In this document: one piece after another, positions 6,447 to 60,719 of the stretch
Layout: each line of letters begins with the position of its first letter
How positions within the stretch are numbered: position 1 is the first letter of the stretch
From: Cerasicoccus maritimus
Lineage (GTDB): Bacteria > Verrucomicrobiota > Verrucomicrobiia > Opitutales > Cerasicoccaceae
Assembly (NCBI GenBank): GCA_031296935.1
Contig: JAVDPD010000001.1
Span: forward strand, 50,422 to 114,421
DNA: 64,000 nt
Direction of reading: 5' to 3'
Translations under genes and position numbers: made by a program
The notes under the pieces: model-generated
Told to the model about the DNA's origin: nothing
Database searches by the model: none
What the model saw: the letters and a program-made list of their open reading frames with translations, nothing else

Positions 6447-7373
6447 ATGAGCATGGAAACGATCGAACTGCAAGGCCACCTAATTCGTAAATGGACCATC
6501 GGCGCCTCCACCTTTCTCGCCTATCCCGAGGCGGGCGCGCGCCTGATGAACTGGCACCTCGCCATGGCCGACGGCTCGTTTCGCGACGTGATTCACTGGC
6601 CGGAAGACGCCGACCTGGACAACATTGCCAAGGTCCGTGGCGGCAACCCCGTGCTGTTCCCATTCTCCGCGCGCACCTTCTGCGAGGGCGAAATCGGCTT
6701 CTGGAAAACGCCCGAAGGCGAGCGGCTGCCCATGGCGATGCACGGCTATGCGCGCCAAGGCAAGTTCCGCATCGAGTCGATTCACGACAAGGGCTTTCTG
6801 GCCATCCTCGAGCCGTCCGACGAGTGCCGCGAGGCCTACCCGTATGACTTCGAGTTCGCCGTGCGTTACCGCTTCGAGCAGCTGTCTTTCTACGTCGATT
6901 ACGAGCTCAAGAACAACGGCGACAAACCGATTCCGTGGTCCGCCGGGCATCATTTTTACTTCTCCATGCCGTGGCATGAAGACCTTTCACGCAAGGACTA
7001 CATGATCACCACCGGTGCCAAGAAAGCGTTCCACCAGAAGGATGATGGCAAGCTGGAGCCTGTTAAAAATTTTCCTGATCCCGCCAGCTTCGGCGATGAC
7101 GCCATCTGCGACCTGATCCGCACCAAGCTCAAGACCAATGAAGTGCGCTTCGGCCCGAAGGGCGGCGAGGAAGACATCGTCATGCGGTTCAATGACAGCG
7201 CCAAGCCCGACCCGTGGAATGCGCTCGTTACCTGGACTATGGCTGACGATAGCCCGTTCTACTGCGTTGAGCCGTGGATGGGCCCGCCCAATGCGCCCGA
7301 GATCAAAAACGGCCTGCACTTCGTCAACCCCGGCAAAAGCGAAGTCTTCAGCGTCCAAGTCTCCCTCGGCTAA
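6447..7373 (+). CDS. Aldose 1-epimerase family protein
   Basis: 308 aa from ATG 6447; the frame is open upstream to 6303 but that part lies in a dispersed repeat. The fold signature of galactose-mutarotase-like proteins is visible: RKWTIGASTFLAYPEAGARL at the start, GNPVLFPFSARTF, a mid-protein MHGYARQGKF containing the conserved His, and GHHFYFSMP. Family members interconvert sugar anomers or act on hexose 6-phosphates. Substrate unknown. Likely cytosolic (no signal peptide). Its stop TAA is followed with no spacer by a chain of hairpins. Confidence 0.83.
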   Translation: MSMETIELQGHLIRKWTIGASTFLAYPEAGARLMNWHLAMADGSFRDVIHWPEDADLDNIAKVRGGNPVLFPFSARTFCEGEIGFWKTPEGERLPMAMHGYARQGKFRIESIHDKGFLAILEPSDECREAYPYDFEFAVRYRFEQLSFYVDYELKNNGDKPIPWSAGHHFYFSMPWHEDLSRKDYMITTGAKKAFHQKDDGKLEPVKNFPDPASFGDDAICDLIRTKLKTNEVRFGPKGGEEDIVMRFNDSAKPDPWNALVTWTMADDSPFYCVEPWMGPPNAPEIKNGLHFVNPGKSEVFSVQVSLG

Positions 7374-7455
7374 CCAGCCTCCGGCTGGACCGGCGGATGC
7401 TTCGCATCCGGATTTGGCAACGTGCCGTTGCATCCGGATTTGCCATTGGGCAAAT
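7371..7455 (+). repeat. Stop-anchored hairpin element, copy E6 (extended)
   Basis: Starting at the TAA of the epimerase gene: hairpin CCAGCC-tcc-GGCTGG (7374-7388), GGATGC-ttc-GCATCC (7395-7409), GCAACG-tgc-CGTTGC (7417-7431), then ATTTGCC-attg-GGCAAAT (7438-7455). The 6-bp stems with 3-nt loops followed by an ATTTGC..GCAAAT stem match the other copies at 9125-9170, 12365-12406, 21092-21139, 51601-51655 and 59983-60027, in the same orientation relative to the gene. Three first-type hairpins here instead of one. Confidence 0.85.
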
Positions 7456-7472
7456 GGCTTATTGAACTGAAT

Positions 7473-7535
7473 GAGGTAGGGCGACGCTTACCATTCGACT
7501 TGGCACATGTCAGGCAAGCGAGCCGCACGCTGCCT
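7473..7535. repeat. GTAGGG-type palindromic repeat
   Basis: Begins GGTAGGGCGACGCTTAC and contains AGCGAGCCGC downstream. The same arms, closer together, form the palindrome at 54521-54556. A GTAG foot followed by an imperfect palindrome is the layout of REP sequences moved by RAYT transposases (established for the class; assignment here is inference). Confidence 0.55.
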
Positions 7536-9078: not shown

Positions 9079-9106
9079 CGGCTTGTCTGGAGACTGCGCC
9101 CTACCT
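9079..9106 (-). repeat. GTAGGGCGCAGTCTCC dispersed repeat, copy 1
   Basis: Minus-strand copy of AGGTAGGGCGCAGTCTCCAG followed by ACAAGCC. Other copies at 12322-12349 and 54323-54349 are identical over at least 24 bases, so recent spread or conversion is likely. Also begins with a GTAG tetranucleotide. Confidence 0.8.
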
Positions 9107-9124
9107 CATTTAGTTGGATAGGCC

Positions 9125-9170
9125 ATTTTTGCAGTGCAAAAATCTCTCCGGTGCAGCGGGACGCTGCCTA
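9125..9170 (-). repeat. Stop-anchored double hairpin, copy E1
   Basis: In gene sense: stop TAG (9168-9170), then GCAGCG-tcc-CGCTGC (9153-9167) with no spacer, a short spacer, and ATTTTTGCA-c-TGCAAAAAT (9125-9143). It follows the RmlD-like gene. Both stems differ from other copies by paired changes. Confidence 0.88.
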
Positions 9171-11491: not shown

Positions 11492-11520
11492 GATGTTTGC
11501 TGGGAGATTAGGTTGGGAGG

Positions 11521-11550
11521 AAAAAGATTAAAGGAAAAAGGAAAAAGTCT
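11521..11550 (+). repeat. Purine-rich GATTAAAGG repeat, copy 1
   Basis: AAAAAGATTAAAGGAAAAAG followed by GAAAAAGTCT. The same text is at 28543-28570, with an inverted partial copy at 28644-28661. Confidence 0.7.
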
Positions 11551-12314: not shown

Positions 12315-12321
12315 TGGAGTC

Positions 12322-12349
12322 AGGTAGGGCGCAGTCTCCAGACAAGCCG
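12322..12349 (+). repeat. GTAGGGCGCAGTCTCC dispersed repeat, copy 2
   Basis: Same text as 9079-9106 (opposite strand) and 54323-54349. It lies directly between a terminator and a stop-anchored double hairpin. Confidence 0.8.
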
Positions 12350-12364
12350 CGGCATCGGAGTGGC

Positions 12365-12406
12365 ATTTGCCCAATGGGCAAATCAATCGGTCGAGCAGGA
12401 TGCTCG
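12365..12406 (-). repeat. Stop-anchored double hairpin, copy E2 (overlaps coding end)
   Basis: In gene sense: CGAGCA-tcc-TGCTCG (12392-12406), spacer, ATTTGCCCA-t-TGGGCAAAT (12365-12383). Unlike the other copies the ferredoxin frame reads through the first hairpin and stops at the edge of the second, so the last residues (about RASCSTD) are probably encoded by the repeat. Confidence 0.85.
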
Positions 12407-21091: not shown

Positions 21092-21139
21092 ATTTTGCGC
21101 AGCAAAATCTATGGGTGCAGCGGCACGCTGCCTGCGTTA
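21092..21139 (-). repeat. Stop-anchored double hairpin, copy E3
   Basis: In gene sense: stop TAA of ilvA (21137-21139), 5 nt, GCAGCG-tgc-CGCTGC (21117-21131), spacer, ATTTTGC-tgc-GCAAAAT (21092-21108). A third stem GGCAAC-gaatt-GTTGCC lies at 21071-21087. Confidence 0.85.
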
Positions 21140-28516: not shown

Positions 28517-28538
28517 CCGACGCGCGGCTGCGCGTCGG
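28514..28538 (+). repeat. Stop-anchored hairpin after rseP
   Basis: TAG followed with no spacer by CCGACGCGC-ggct-GCGCGTCGG. No T tract, so not a classical terminator. Confidence 0.8.
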
Positions 28539-28542
28539 AGTT

Positions 28543-28661
28543 GAAAGATTAAAGGAAAAAGGAAAAGTCTCAGTGAGGCTGATTGGTGGATGAATTTCAG
28601 GCAACAAATGCCCGGCGTCCTCACTCCTCAATCAACCCGTCCGAAACTTTTTCCTTTAATC
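28543..28661. repeat. GATTAAAGG inverted pair between rseP and purB
   Basis: GAAAGATTAAAGGAAAAAGG at 28543-28562 and its partial complement ACTTTTTCCTTTAATC at 28646-28661 bracket ~80 bp. It lies between two convergent genes, each of which ends in a stop-anchored hairpin, so the whole gap is built of symmetric repeats. Confidence 0.75.
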
Positions 28662-40783: not shown

Positions 40784-41910
40784 TGCGACCACTCAGCTTA
40801 GCCCTTATTCTGTTAACCATTGCTTCCAGCCTGGTCGCCCGTGACCCGAAAAAGGTTGACCGAAATTATCCGACAAATCCGCCTGCCGAGGCGCCGCAGC
40901 CGGGCAACTGGCCCGCGGAGCTCAAGGTAACGGGCAACCGCCTGACCGACCCGGAGGGCAACGAAGTCTGGTTGCAAGGCGTGGCGATTCCCGGTTTGGA
41001 GATCACGCCCAACGGCCACGGCGTGACCAACTCCGCCATCGTAGCGATTGAAGATTGGAACGCCAATGTCATTCGCGTGCCGATCAAGGACGAGTTCTGG
41101 TATGGTCGCGGGAAGGGCCAAACCGATGGCGGCCTTGCTTACCGCGCCAAGGTGGATTCCGTAGTGCAGGCAGTCGCCAATCGCGGCGCTTACATCGTGC
41201 TCGATCACCACCGATTTCGCGCGTTGAAGCAGCAGGAGCTGCCCTTCTGGCAGGAGCTGGCCACGCTTTACAAAAACCACCCGGCGGTGATCTTCGACAT
41301 CATCAACGAGCCGCATGGCATCAGCTGGGAAGTTTGGCGCAATGGCGGTTGGGTTGACGACCCAAATGCGAAGATCAACGAAGCGGGTTTTCTCGACGAA
41401 GCGACGTTGAAGGCCAATCGCGGTTTTGAATCGCCTGGCATGCAAAAGCTGGTCGACGCCGTTCGCGCGACGGGCGCGAAAAACATCATCATTGCTGGTG
41501 GTTTGCAGTGGTCTTACGATCTCTCGGGCATCCTCGATGGCTATGCGCTCGATGATCCCGAGGGCCACGGCATCATGTATGCCACGCACATTTATAATTG
41601 GAAAACCGGCTGGCAAAAAGCCTTCCTCGACACCGCTGAGAAGCACCCGATTTTTGTGGGTGAAGTTGGCGCTGATGTGCTCAAGATGGACTTCATCCCG
41701 TACGAAGATCAGGAAGATCCATACACTTGGGTGCCCGATATGTTGGGCGTCATTCAAAAGTATCGCCTCAACTGGACGGGCTGGTCGTTCCATACTTGGG
41801 CCACGCCCGTCATGCTCAGCAATTGGCAATACGAGCCCAGCCCTTTCTGGGGCGCCTACGCCAAGCGCGCGCTGGCTGGTGAGCGGTTTGAAGTGAAGCG
41901 CCTGCGTTGA
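40780..41910 (+). CDS. Secreted GH5-type glycoside hydrolase
   Basis: 376 aa, signal peptide [21 protein letters not shown]5 features: HHRFRA, catalytic acid/base Glu177 in INEPHG and nucleophile Glu295 in VGEVGAD, which are the standard beta-4 and beta-7 positions. Beta-1,4-glucanase/mannanase type; substrate open. Start overlaps the SGNH gene. The same core appears with binding domains added in the next gene (42060-44264). Confidence 0.92.
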
Positions 41911-41950
41911 TGGAACCTCAGCAAAGCGAATATTTACCAACATAGTTTGT

Positions 41951-41964
41951 CGCAATCTTTTGCG
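41951..41964. promoter_or_regulatory. Candidate LacI-family operator, site 2
   Basis: CGCAATCTTTTGCG, arms CGCAA/TTGCG conserved but centre different from the other three sites; 95 bp before 42060. Confidence 0.4.
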
Positions 41965-42059
41965 TCCGGCGAACCTTGCGAACGGAACAATCGGCGCGTT
42001 GATTTATCTAAAATATAGCCTATCGTTAATGGGCCTCGCGCCCCATCCCCCCGAATCCC

Positions 42060-44264
42060 ATGAAGAAAAATTTATCTCATTCCCTGCGCTTCATATTGGC
42101 GCTGTGCGCCCTGTGCGCAGCCCAAGTATTTGCTCAAGCGCCCGTAGCCGCACCACAACCTTTGGTGGGCAACAGTAGTTTTGAAATCGATGCCGACGGA
42201 GACAACTGGCCTGATGGTTGGGCGCAGCCAAAAATCGGTGGAAGCTGGCAGGAAGAGGCAGGCAGCCGCTTCATTCGCATGGAGAGCCCGGCGCCCGGTG
42301 AGATGGTGATGCTCTATCAGGAAATTGAAATTCCTGAAGGCGTTGAAGCTATCGAAATGACTTGGAAGCAGCGCATCAGCAATCTTAAGCGCGGCGAGAA
42401 ATCCTGGTTCGATGCGCGTATCATGATGGAATTCATGGATGCCAACCGCAGTAAGGTTCCTGGCAAGCCACGTGCGCCGGCCACGAACAAGAACACCGAC
42501 GGCTGGGTCGAAAAAAAGACTACTTTTCTGGTCCCCGAGGGGGCGAAGATTTTGAAGTTCATGCCGTGTTTGTTCAACGTGGCATCGGGTACGTATGATA
42601 TCGATGACCTGGTGCTGATGCCAACGGATCCTACTCCTTTGCGCGCCGCAGCGGAACAAGCCCGCATCGAGCGTGATGAAAAGAAGGCCAAGGAAATGGC
42701 CAAGACCAGTGCCAAGGCCGAAAAGCTGTTGGCTGATACGGGTTCGTATATAGTCGGCGGTGATTTCGAAGGCCGCTTTGCCAAGAAGAAAAACGTCGTT
42801 GAAGAAGGTGGTAACCACTACCTGCGTCTCGTGAGCACCGAGCCGGGGGAGATGGTTATGGATTACCGCGAGGTCAACATCCCCTCTGGCATCGAAGCCC
42901 TGGAGCTCAGCTGGACGCAGCGCGTGACCGGCCTTAAGAAAGGCGAGAAGCCGTGGTTTGACGCCCGCATCATGATGGAGTGGAAGGATGCTACTGGCAA
43001 GAAGCTCAAGAGTAAGCCATCGCCATCTTATACTCAGCGCGACACCAAGGGATGGGTCGATAAGACCAAGGCTTTCCTCGTGCCGGAAGACGCCGCTACA
43101 CTCATCATAATGACGACGTTGTTCAACGTGAAGGCCGGTACATACGAAGTCGATAACTTTGTGTTGAAGCCTACCGACCCGGGGCCGATCAAGGAAAGGG
43201 CTGCCGCGCGTGCGCGTCAGAAGGCCGCGAAATTTGTTCCGGCTGAAGAACCGAAGCCGGAGAACTGGCCGAAGATGCTCAAGGTCGTTGGCAACCGACT
43301 GCACGATACGGATGGCAATGAAGTATGGCTACAAGGTGTGAACGCAGGTGGCTTGGAAACTTTGCCTATGGACGAGCAACCAGTGAAGTCGCTTGTTGTT
43401 GGCATCGATGAATGGAACTCTAACTGCATCCGCGTGCCGATCAAGGAATCGTTCTGGTGGGGCGAGAGCCCTTATCAAAAGGACGGCGGTAAGGGCTACC
43501 GCGAAATCATCGATAAGATGATCACCCTCGCGGCCAACCGTGGCGCCTACATTGTGATCGACCTCCACCGCTACCGAGCACCCAAGGAAGTGCACGCAAA
43601 ATTCTGGCGCGAATTTGCCGCGCTTTACAAAGACCACCCTGCTGTTTTGTTCGACATCATGAATGAGCCGCATGGCATCAGCTGGGAAATCTGGCGCAAT
43701 GGCGGCTGGGTAGGCAACAAGTCTGGTACGGACGAGTCTGCGTTCCTCACTGCCGAAGAGAAAAAGAAGAACCAGGGCTTTGAATCCATCGGCATGCAAG
43801 GGCTCGTGGACGCCGTTCGCTCGACTGGCGCGAAGAACATCATCATCGCCGGTGGCGTGGAGTGGTGCAACGACCTCTCAGGCGTAGTCAACGGCTATGC
43901 GTTGGATGACCCAAGCGGCAATGGCATCATGTATTCCTGGCACACGTACCATTGGCACAAAGGTTGGGCGACCAAGCTTATGCCCGCTGCCGAAAAGTAT
44001 CCAATCTTCCTCGGTGAAGTTGGCGCGGACGTTAAAAAGATGGGCTTCATTCCGGATGAAATTCAGGAAGACCCCGCGACCTTCGTGCCAGACATGCTTG
44101 GCTTTATTCAGAAGTATAAAATCAATTGGACGGGCTGGTGCTTCCATCCTTACGCCACACCGCGCATGCTGGTGGATTGGGATTACACGCCGACTCCTTT
44201 CTGGGGCGTCCCGGCCAAGGAAGCTCTGGCCGGTAAACAATTTGAGCTAAAAAAGCTTCGCTAG
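42060..44264 (+). CDS. Two tandem CBM-like domains fused to a GH5 catalytic domain
   Basis: 734 aa. Signal peptide ending near FAQAP. Residues ~35-205 and ~225-385 are two copies of a beta-jellyroll carbohydrate-binding-type module ([30 protein letters not shown]; both contain PGEMVM.Y.E..IP.G.EA.E..W.QR). The GH5 domain (~400-734) is a close paralogue of the preceding gene: [15 protein letters not shown] with acid/base Glu, and GEVGADVKK nucleophile region. A lysine/alanine linker joins modules. Terminator follows. Confidence 0.92.
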
Positions 44265-51600: not shown

Positions 51601-51655
51601 ATTTGCGCCACGCGCAAATCTAAATCTATGGATGCAACGGCACGTTGCGCTGCTA
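51601..51655 (-). repeat. Stop-anchored double hairpin, copy E4
   Basis: Gene sense: stop TAG of the SDR gene (51653-51655), 4 nt, GCAACG-tgc-CGTTGC (51634-51648), spacer, ATTTGCGC-gtg-GCGCAAAT (51601-51619). Both stems differ from E1 and E3 by paired changes. Confidence 0.88.
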
Positions 51656-59897: not shown

Positions 59898-59959
59898 AGA
59901 TAACATGAAGTTGCCGGGTTGAGCAAGTGCTGGACCCCGGCAACTTCATGTTATCTCTA
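59895..59959. repeat. GATAACATGAAGTTGCC element, copy D (perfect palindrome)
   Basis: Arms 59895-59918 and 59936-59959, 24 bp each without mismatch, starting TAGAGATAACATGAAGTTGC and ending CAACTTCATGTTATCTCTA; 17-nt loop. The left arm's TAG is the M23 stop. Sits between convergent genes and could act as a bidirectional terminator or transcript stabiliser. Confidence 0.92.
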
Positions 59960-59982: not shown

Positions 59983-60027
59983 ATTTGCACAATGTGCAAA
60001 TCTTCCGGTCCAGCAGGATGCTGGCTA
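59983..60027 (-). repeat. Stop-anchored double hairpin, copy E5
   Basis: Gene sense: stop TAG of the sigma factor (60025-60027), CCAGCA-tcc-TGCTGG (60010-60024) with no spacer, ACCGGAAG, ATTTGCACA-t-TGTGCAAAT (59983-60001). Confidence 0.9.
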
Positions 60028-60612
60028 GAAGAAGTTTTTTTCCAGGCACTGGCGCAGGGCCATGCGCGCGCGGTGGAGAATGGTCCACAAATTCTGCGGG
60101 GTGATGTCCAGCTCTTCGCAAATTTGATCGCTCTTGATGCCGTCGATTTCGCGCATGATGAACACAGTGCGAATTTTGTCGGGCAGCTTGTCAGCGCAGG
60201 CGTAAAATTGCTGCATGAACTCCTTGCGGTCCATTTTCTCGACCTGCGCTGGGTTCCAGTCCTTGGGGATGTTGGGGTTGTCGTAGTTCCAGCTGCCGTC
60301 TTCGGAAAAGAGATCGGCTTCCTCACGCTCAAAGAAATTCGCGGTCTCTTGCATGGACTGCGTGCGGTTCTTTTTACGGTAGTAGTCGATGACCTTGTTT
60401 TTCAGGATACCGGTGAGCCAGGTCTTCACACTTGCTTTGCCGGAAAAACGCTCCATGCCTTTGATGGCGGCCAGGAACGTCTCTTGCACAAGGTCTTCGG
60501 CCAGCGCGGCGTTGTTCACGCGGAAGTAGGCAAACTTGTAAAGCGCATCGCCGTATTCGTCGACCCAGGTGGATGGATCGAGTTCCGGTTTGGCTGACGG
60601 GTCTTCGGGCAT
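60025..60612 (-). CDS. ECF-type RNA polymerase sigma factor
   Basis: 195 aa from ATG 60612. Region 2 with WVDEYGDALYKFAYFRVNNA, EDLVQETFLAAIKGMERFSG, TWLTGILKNKVIDYYRKK; region 4 with LPDKIRTVFIMREIDGIKSD and an HTH near TPQNLWTILHRARMALRQCL. Directs RNA polymerase to an unknown regulon. Many Verrucomicrobia homologues are followed by a zinc-finger anti-sigma gene; here the stop runs straight into a repeat and none is present, so its control is unclear. Confidence 0.88.
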   Translation of the reverse strand: MPEDPSAKPELDPSTWVDEYGDALYKFAYFRVNNAALAEDLVQETFLAAIKGMERFSGKASVKTWLTGILKNKVIDYYRKKNRTQSMQETANFFEREEADLFSEDGSWNYDNPNIPKDWNPAQVEKMDRKEFMQQFYACADKLPDKIRTVFIMREIDGIKSDQICEELDITPQNLWTILHRARMALRQCLEKNFF

Positions 60613-60719
60613 GGCGGTAGCTTCACAAAATGACGTCTGCGCACTCTCTGCCACAAATGCGCAATCGTCAAGCGCGATAAGGTGTTGTGTATTCGCGCTT
60701 AACGCATAAGCTGCTTTTT

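Follow-up and report, generated by a model that had tools for sequence, protein, structure and literature searches.

Transposons of the IS200/IS605 group and REPIN/RAYT systems move as single strands, with hairpins that are read in single-stranded form through base contacts involving bases near the hairpin, and group IIC introns insert after terminator hairpins. For E. coli, Liang, Rudd and Deutscher reportedly dealt in 2015 with REPs lying within 15 nt of a stop codon. Passages of one study (PMC12306157) report that E. coli REPs no more than 15 nt from a stop stall ribosomes and reduce translation; 446 of 4,072 REPs fall within 15 nt of a stop there, and an earlier study is cited with 260 of 496. 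REPs tagged with GTAG or CGTC are described in sections of another source (PMC3733652) as short, high-copy, intergenic palindromes that lie mostly downstream of genes. According to the same sections, GTAG ends often supply TAG stop codons, and such repeats occur in Verrucomicrobia, O. terrae being rich in them.

REPs near stop codons are thus already known; what is distinct about the element described here is that it has no GTAG tag and no linked RAYT, and that its placement is closer and one-sided. It resembles the GTAG/CGTC-tagged REPs, as portrayed in those sections, in being a short intergenic palindrome of high copy number, mostly downstream of genes, whose ends can provide TAG stops, but it is made of two different hairpins with a covarying spacer, keeps a one-sided orientation and is tightly anchored at any stop codon. 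With the E. coli REPs of the passages cited above, it shares a hairpin close behind the stop and possible ribosome stalling; in contrast to them, its most frequent distance is 0 nt, it is strand-specific, the stop sometimes lies within it and its insertion is visible against orthologues. Unlike IS200/IS605 and REPIN/RAYT, it comes with no linked enzyme, has covarying bases 3′ of hairpin 1 and lands at gene ends with no fixed tetranucleotide. Landing at transcript ends is a likeness to group IIC introns, but the element is far too short, encodes no protein and mostly uses stop-codon sites. Within the terms and collection searched, the literature held no element placed at stop codons by insertion. 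The impression of the earlier note on this DNA that no named element has this layout holds as far as our search reached, with the correction that REPs near stops are described in two sources (PMC3733652 and PMC12306157).

The 64-kb window (the whole stretch of DNA analysed) contains the six copies that the earlier note had listed, all of them at the places given and with the stems given. The focal 42-nt element lies on the minus strand at 59983–60024, directly behind the TAG stop (60025–60027) of a sigma-70-type gene (60025–60654), and scores 66.5 bits against covariance model R1. In gene orientation, it consists of hairpin 1 (60010–60024; CCAGCA, loop TCC, TGCTGG), the spacer ACCGGAAG (60002–60009), whose bases at core positions 17 and 19 change in step with hairpin 1 throughout the family, and hairpin 2 (59983–60001; ATTTGCAC, loop ATT, GTGCAAAT). 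Four more copies are on the minus strand. One, with the TAG stop (9168–9170) of an RmlD-type reductase gene, spans 9125–9170 at distance 0, and the element is present in relative G001 and absent from G002 and G003. The copy at 12365–12406 encloses the TGA stop (12383–12385) of a ferredoxin gene, which runs from the last part of the spacer into hairpin 2, taking up its first base. A copy at 21092–21139 includes the TAA stop (21137–21139) of a threonine dehydratase gene, from which it is separated by 5 nt (element nearby in G001, none in G002 or G003), and a copy at 51601–51655 stands 4 nt behind the TAG stop (51653–51655) of an SDR gene whose G001 and G002 orthologues lack the element. On the plus strand, a composite copy (7371–7455) begins at distance 0 with the TAA stop (7371–7373) of an aldose epimerase gene and continues with the hairpins CCAGCC/GGCTGG, GGATGC/GCATCC, GCAACG/CGTTGC and ATTTGCC/GGCAAAT, the model match proper being 7417–7455. 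The claim that five of the six copies start within 0–5 nt of a stop is therefore correct (0, 0, 5, 4 and 0 nt at 7371, 9125, 21092, 51601 and 59983). The six genes are unrelated, as had been stated, which rules out common ancestry of the host genes as the cause.

The family core is 42 nt long in gene orientation, with a 6-bp hairpin 1 whose loop is TCC or TGC in most copies, a spacer of 8 nt with ACCGATAG as its commonest sequence, and an 8-bp hairpin 2 with a 3-nt loop and typical arms ATTTGCNC/GNGCAAAT; what follows hairpin 2 is mostly GGC/GCG-type sequence. DNA folding of three sequences gives the double hairpin at −12 to −14 kcal/mol (z −4.6 to −5.2), and the same double-hairpin core forms in RNA folding. 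Pairing was counted in 153 distinct 42-mers, after matches of other lengths (24 of 190) and duplicates had been left out: of the 2,142 pair cells, 2,102 hold Watson-Crick pairs, 13 hold G-U, 11 hold A-C and 16 hold other combinations, such that G-U is not preferred over A-C. The paired base changes seen earlier in the stems recur in 123 distinct rows, with two-sided changes at 10 of 14 pairs and a stem covariation of 0.419, compared with 0.111 for shuffled rows and at most 0.044 with slid partners, although this figure is biased toward the structure because the alignment was fitted to the model. Template switching in DNA could produce flawless stem pairs without selection, and the two sources are inseparable here.

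Covariation extends beyond the stems. Base 8 of the hairpin 1 loop and spacer base 19 are complementary in 146 of 153 sequences, and stem pair 4–12 tracks spacer base 17 (C where the pair is G-C, T where it is A-T) in 148 of 153; the mutual information of both dependencies reaches that of several stem pairs. Four main combinations of hairpin 1 and spacer account for 78, 24, 22 and 17 of the 153. The observation that spacers start with ACC or ATCC is borne out, with the addition that the start varies with the sequence of stem and loop. The spacer may fold back on hairpin 1, or a single protein may read both. The missing wobble preference points to DNA rather than RNA, and a recognized DNA hairpin fits better than an RNA signal, given that lack of preference and the two spacer bases that covary with hairpin 1. 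Curated Rfam families gave no match at the gathering score in the 64-kb window, and five loci with element copies gave one tRNA and nothing else.

A covariance model built from 21 copies was searched across the host and its relatives; at E ≤ 0.1, it matched the host genome 152 times, and among the matches listed, 118 reached E ≤ 1e-5. Under stricter filters, the matches at E ≤ 1e-5 number 113 in the host and 45, 50 and 9 in three other members of the genus. The element is present in all four Cerasicoccus genomes searched (the host and three others) out of 54 genomes in all, and the 50 genomes of other genera yielded no match at E ≤ 1e-5 with the stricter filters, 120 candidates being scored in each genome. 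When named genomes were scanned for the exact pattern, only Cerasicoccus frondis NBRC 105381 came up, with four stretches; the host's own record was possibly excluded from that scan. This genus-specific double hairpin stands, in one orientation, at the stops of many genes that have no relation to each other; such a pattern suggests a small mobile sequence whose landing sites are gene ends.

Placement was examined for 126 host copies at E ≤ 1e-5, using 74 stretches around the best 109 model matches (107 of these 109 outside the window) together with the window, with genes called by coding score using a purpose-made caller. The upstream neighbour is co-directional for 101 copies, antisense for 21 and absent for 3, and 1 copy is intragenic. 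A co-directional stop lies at −24 to +6 nt of the core in 76 of the 126, a rate that holds for clear copies because the stretches were chosen for holding the best matches; the mirror arrangement, with the stop on the other side, occurs in none of the 126. The stop-to-core distance is 0 nt in 28 copies, −1 in 11, −2 or −3 in 2, +1 in 9, +3 to +5 in 14 and +6 in 1, and the stop is inside the element (−16 to −24) in 11. Copies 0–5 nt behind a stop number 51 of 126, compared with 1.06% for random points in the same intergenic DNA. By eye, 11 more copies stand behind another unit in arrays that start at a stop; with these added, 87 of 126 copies are anchored and 39 remain away from any stop. In the relatives, a stop is found at −24 to +5 nt in 42 of 64 copies (22 of 35 in G001, 14 of 22 in G002 and 6 of 7 in G003). 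The preference for stops is thus seen beyond the window as well as in it.

Several other accounts of this preference were considered. When copies are divided into thirds by score, as a measure of divergence from the consensus, 24, 26 and 26 of 42 are anchored, with no rise with divergence; this equality favours placement at insertion over slow filtering, and survival filtering with age was rejected on these numbers. Five control repeat families in the same stretches have 0 of 9, 0 of 36, 0 of 9, 0 of 10 and 2 of 16 copies at 0–5 nt behind a co-directional stop, and the family with 0 of 36 has 1 of 36 when read in the opposite direction. TAA or TAG stands at the core start in 49 copies and is a gene stop in 46 of them, against a baseline of 444 gene stops among 6,959 TAA/TAG (6.4%) in non-coding DNA plus stops, which led us to reject plain targeting of a TAA/TAG motif. 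The stops at the element are TAG in 39 cases, TAA in 20 and TGA in 4 (n = 63); among all called genes, the numbers are 204, 240 and 86 (n = 530).

Orthologous sites with and without the element were compared in two sets with opposite bias. The first favours shared copies, the stretches from relatives having mostly been fetched for the elements in them, and the second, covering 36 of 50 eligible genes, favours empty sites because already matched genes were left out. A site was called empty when its score fell below a threshold set from random windows. Of 53 anchored loci with at least one passing orthologue, 26 were empty in all relatives seen and 27 had a copy or remnant in a relative; one of the 26, L035:3640, has by eye a diverged copy just below the threshold. 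In the second set, 30 loci passed the filters and 19 were empty in every relative seen, in the set whose bias is toward empty sites. By relative, G001 shows an element or remnant in 22 of 51 orthologues, G002 in 8 of 38 and G003 in 1 of 6, and single-hairpin remnants make up 11 of the 31 detected traces.

Where nothing was detected and the host copy stands at −1 to +1, host and relative share the codon at which the frame ends in 28 of 40 comparisons of stop codon and length, some of which use more than one relative per gene. TAG is the stop in 28 of these 40 comparisons for the host and in 14 of 40 for the relatives, which indicates that insertion often changes the stop codon. A clean example, judged by eye, is the junction of L095 against L197, which reads TAGCC, the insert, then AAAAAAGCGCC. 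At L047, compared by eye with L211, the insert lies immediately before the relative's stop, and the host gene now terminates in the TAG of the spacer. At the focal site, the element is missing in all three relatives, whose genes run on for one or two codons and stop at TGA. The element at L080:7592 is found in all four species, with stems that differ yet pair. Loci shared in this way suggest that the element is to some extent maintained, or old.

Gene ends other than stop codons are also used. Among the 50 host copies without a stop at −24 to +6 nt, inspection by eye placed 11 in the arrays mentioned above, 4 after terminators, 1 after a tRNA and 4 behind a CAGTCTCCAGACAAGCCG-type repeat, with 30 at no evident site. 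A terminator-like hairpin with a T-run directly precedes 4 of the 126 copies, compared with 7 of 3,000 random intergenic points, and a G002 copy (L147) likewise follows a terminator by eye. At a tRNA-Leu gene (L064, 11637–11721), the CCA 3′ end forms the first three bases of an element copy; the same tRNA-Leu ends in CCAG with no element in G001 and G003, and an apparent eroded copy follows it in G002.

No mobilizing gene was found for the element in the genus genomes searched. Y1 transposase genes (PF01797) occur at 2, 3, 8 and 0 loci in G000 to G003, and none of these 13 loci, fetched as 3.1–3.3 kb, carries the element at E ≤ 0.1, including as a flank of a cognate transposase gene. A 308-residue Y1-type protein of G001 has a shorter relative in the host that is unlinked to the element, and it is possible that a transposase was missed by PF01797. 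A weak lead is a reverse transcriptase whose best match is PADLOC RT_XIII (type XIII retron-like), found at L253 (868–2544), L254 and L255 and thus in the three element-rich genomes. In the host, it adjoins a gene whose product reads by eye as SWIM-like; the G001 and G002 orthologues are 86% identical to the host protein and 96% to each other, and G003, the element-poor genome, gave no match among the four genomes compared. Reverse transcriptase matches of their own also occur in four of six searched relatives from other genera that lack the element.

The hairpin could be a selected RNA element that holds up ribosomes as they terminate or shields the 3′ end of the mRNA, copies at stops being kept and others lost. 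The lower translation reported for E. coli REPs near a stop in the passages of PMC12306157 would agree with this, as would the copy or remnant seen in a relative at 27 of 53 loci, the paired stems of L080:7592 and the location between stop and terminator at several loci (by eye), from which the element is probably transcribed. Against it stand the stems that do not tolerate G-U above A-C, the one-hairpin remnants, the equal anchoring of the most and least consensus-like copies, and the copies that follow terminators or a tRNA-Leu end in place of a stop; we regard selection for an RNA function as somewhat unlikely to be the main cause. The suggestion of a post-transcriptional 3′-end signal is not borne out, given the same lack of G-U preference and also because separate hairpins with T-runs lie downstream of the element in L060, L035, L080 and L082 (by eye). 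These hairpins likewise oppose reading the element as an intrinsic terminator of local type, which its stable hairpins at gene ends might invite. The usual arrangement has no T-run behind hairpin 2 and four copies themselves follow a terminator, and we rejected this reading as extremely improbable.

An ordinary GTAG-type REP moved by a RAYT, with the TAG of its end tag serving incidentally as a stop, would account for the many spacers that end in TAG and for units repeated in tandem behind that TAG, and the element is indeed a short, dispersed, extragenic palindrome. The sections of PMC3733652 on TAG stops from GTAG ends and on O. terrae would also be in keeping with it. However, the tetranucleotide before the core is GTAG in 1 of 126 copies (CTAG in 11, CTAA in 7, ATAG in 6), TAA and TGA stops are used as well, the Y1 loci lack the element and a GTAG repeat of the same genome is unanchored (0 of 9); this explanation was rejected as improbable. 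We consider it probable instead that the sequence is a genus-specific, REP-like DNA element that inserts in one direction where genes end on their 3′ side, in most cases at the stop codon. Its structure, copy number, orientation and anchoring, the orthologous sites without it and its eroded remnants are direct observations, and the idea of a repeat that targets gene ends is supported by the host counts, their replication in three relatives and those orthologous sites.

In the mechanism that we favour, the short double hairpin would be the spreading unit, inserted in one orientation at gene 3′ boundaries. An enzyme would recognize hairpin 1 and the spacer as folded, probably single-stranded, DNA and would place the element where expression marks gene ends. 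Because the bare letters TAA or TAG are insufficient, the restriction to stops must derive from something linked to expression, the candidates being the terminating ribosome, the 3′ end of the RNA and single-stranded DNA that is exposed; effects on the host's translation or mRNA, if any, would be secondary. Counting against insertion at gene ends are the variable insertion point (−1, 0, +1, 4–5 and just before the stop), the 39 of 126 copies away from stops even with arrays included, the missing mobilizing gene and the element or remnant in a relative at 27 of 53 loci, which could reflect upkeep. A bolder version, which we think unlikely, is that gene expression and not DNA sequence sets the landing site, the element being joined at RNA 3′ ends or ribosome termination points (stops, ends of intrinsic terminators, the CCA end of a tRNA), perhaps via an RNA intermediate; the type XIII retron-like reverse transcriptase described above is a weak lead in this direction. 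Stops share no DNA motif beyond three letters, and a repeat that finds them must either read an expression-linked cue or be filtered with a precision close to one nucleotide. Both possibilities have a bearing on the long-standing puzzle of why REPs cluster behind genes, and the genus, with its species-specific copies, its element-free orthologous sites and its paired subtypes, offers a clean test system.

Other repeats lie near element copies or behind genes in the window. A long inverted repeat, ATAACATGAAGTTGCCGGG ... CCCCGGCAACTTCATGTTAT, is found beside the focal copy at 59900–59955; 16 places in the host stretches are related to it, and 2 of these lie 0–5 nt behind a stop. The dispersed repeat AGGTAGGGCGCAGTCTCCAGACAAGCCGC (7471–7483, 9097–9109 and 12321–12360) stands behind or around several element copies, with 36 copies at three or fewer changes in the host stretches. 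A third repeat, which contains ATTAAAGGAAAAAG, is located behind genes at 11516–11545, 28537–28566 and about 28516 and 35300; at two genes, an unrelated perfect hairpin lies directly at the TAG and is followed by this motif. Elsewhere in the window, 41047–44245 holds two paralogous stretches 2.35 kb apart that are 71–83% identical where aligned.
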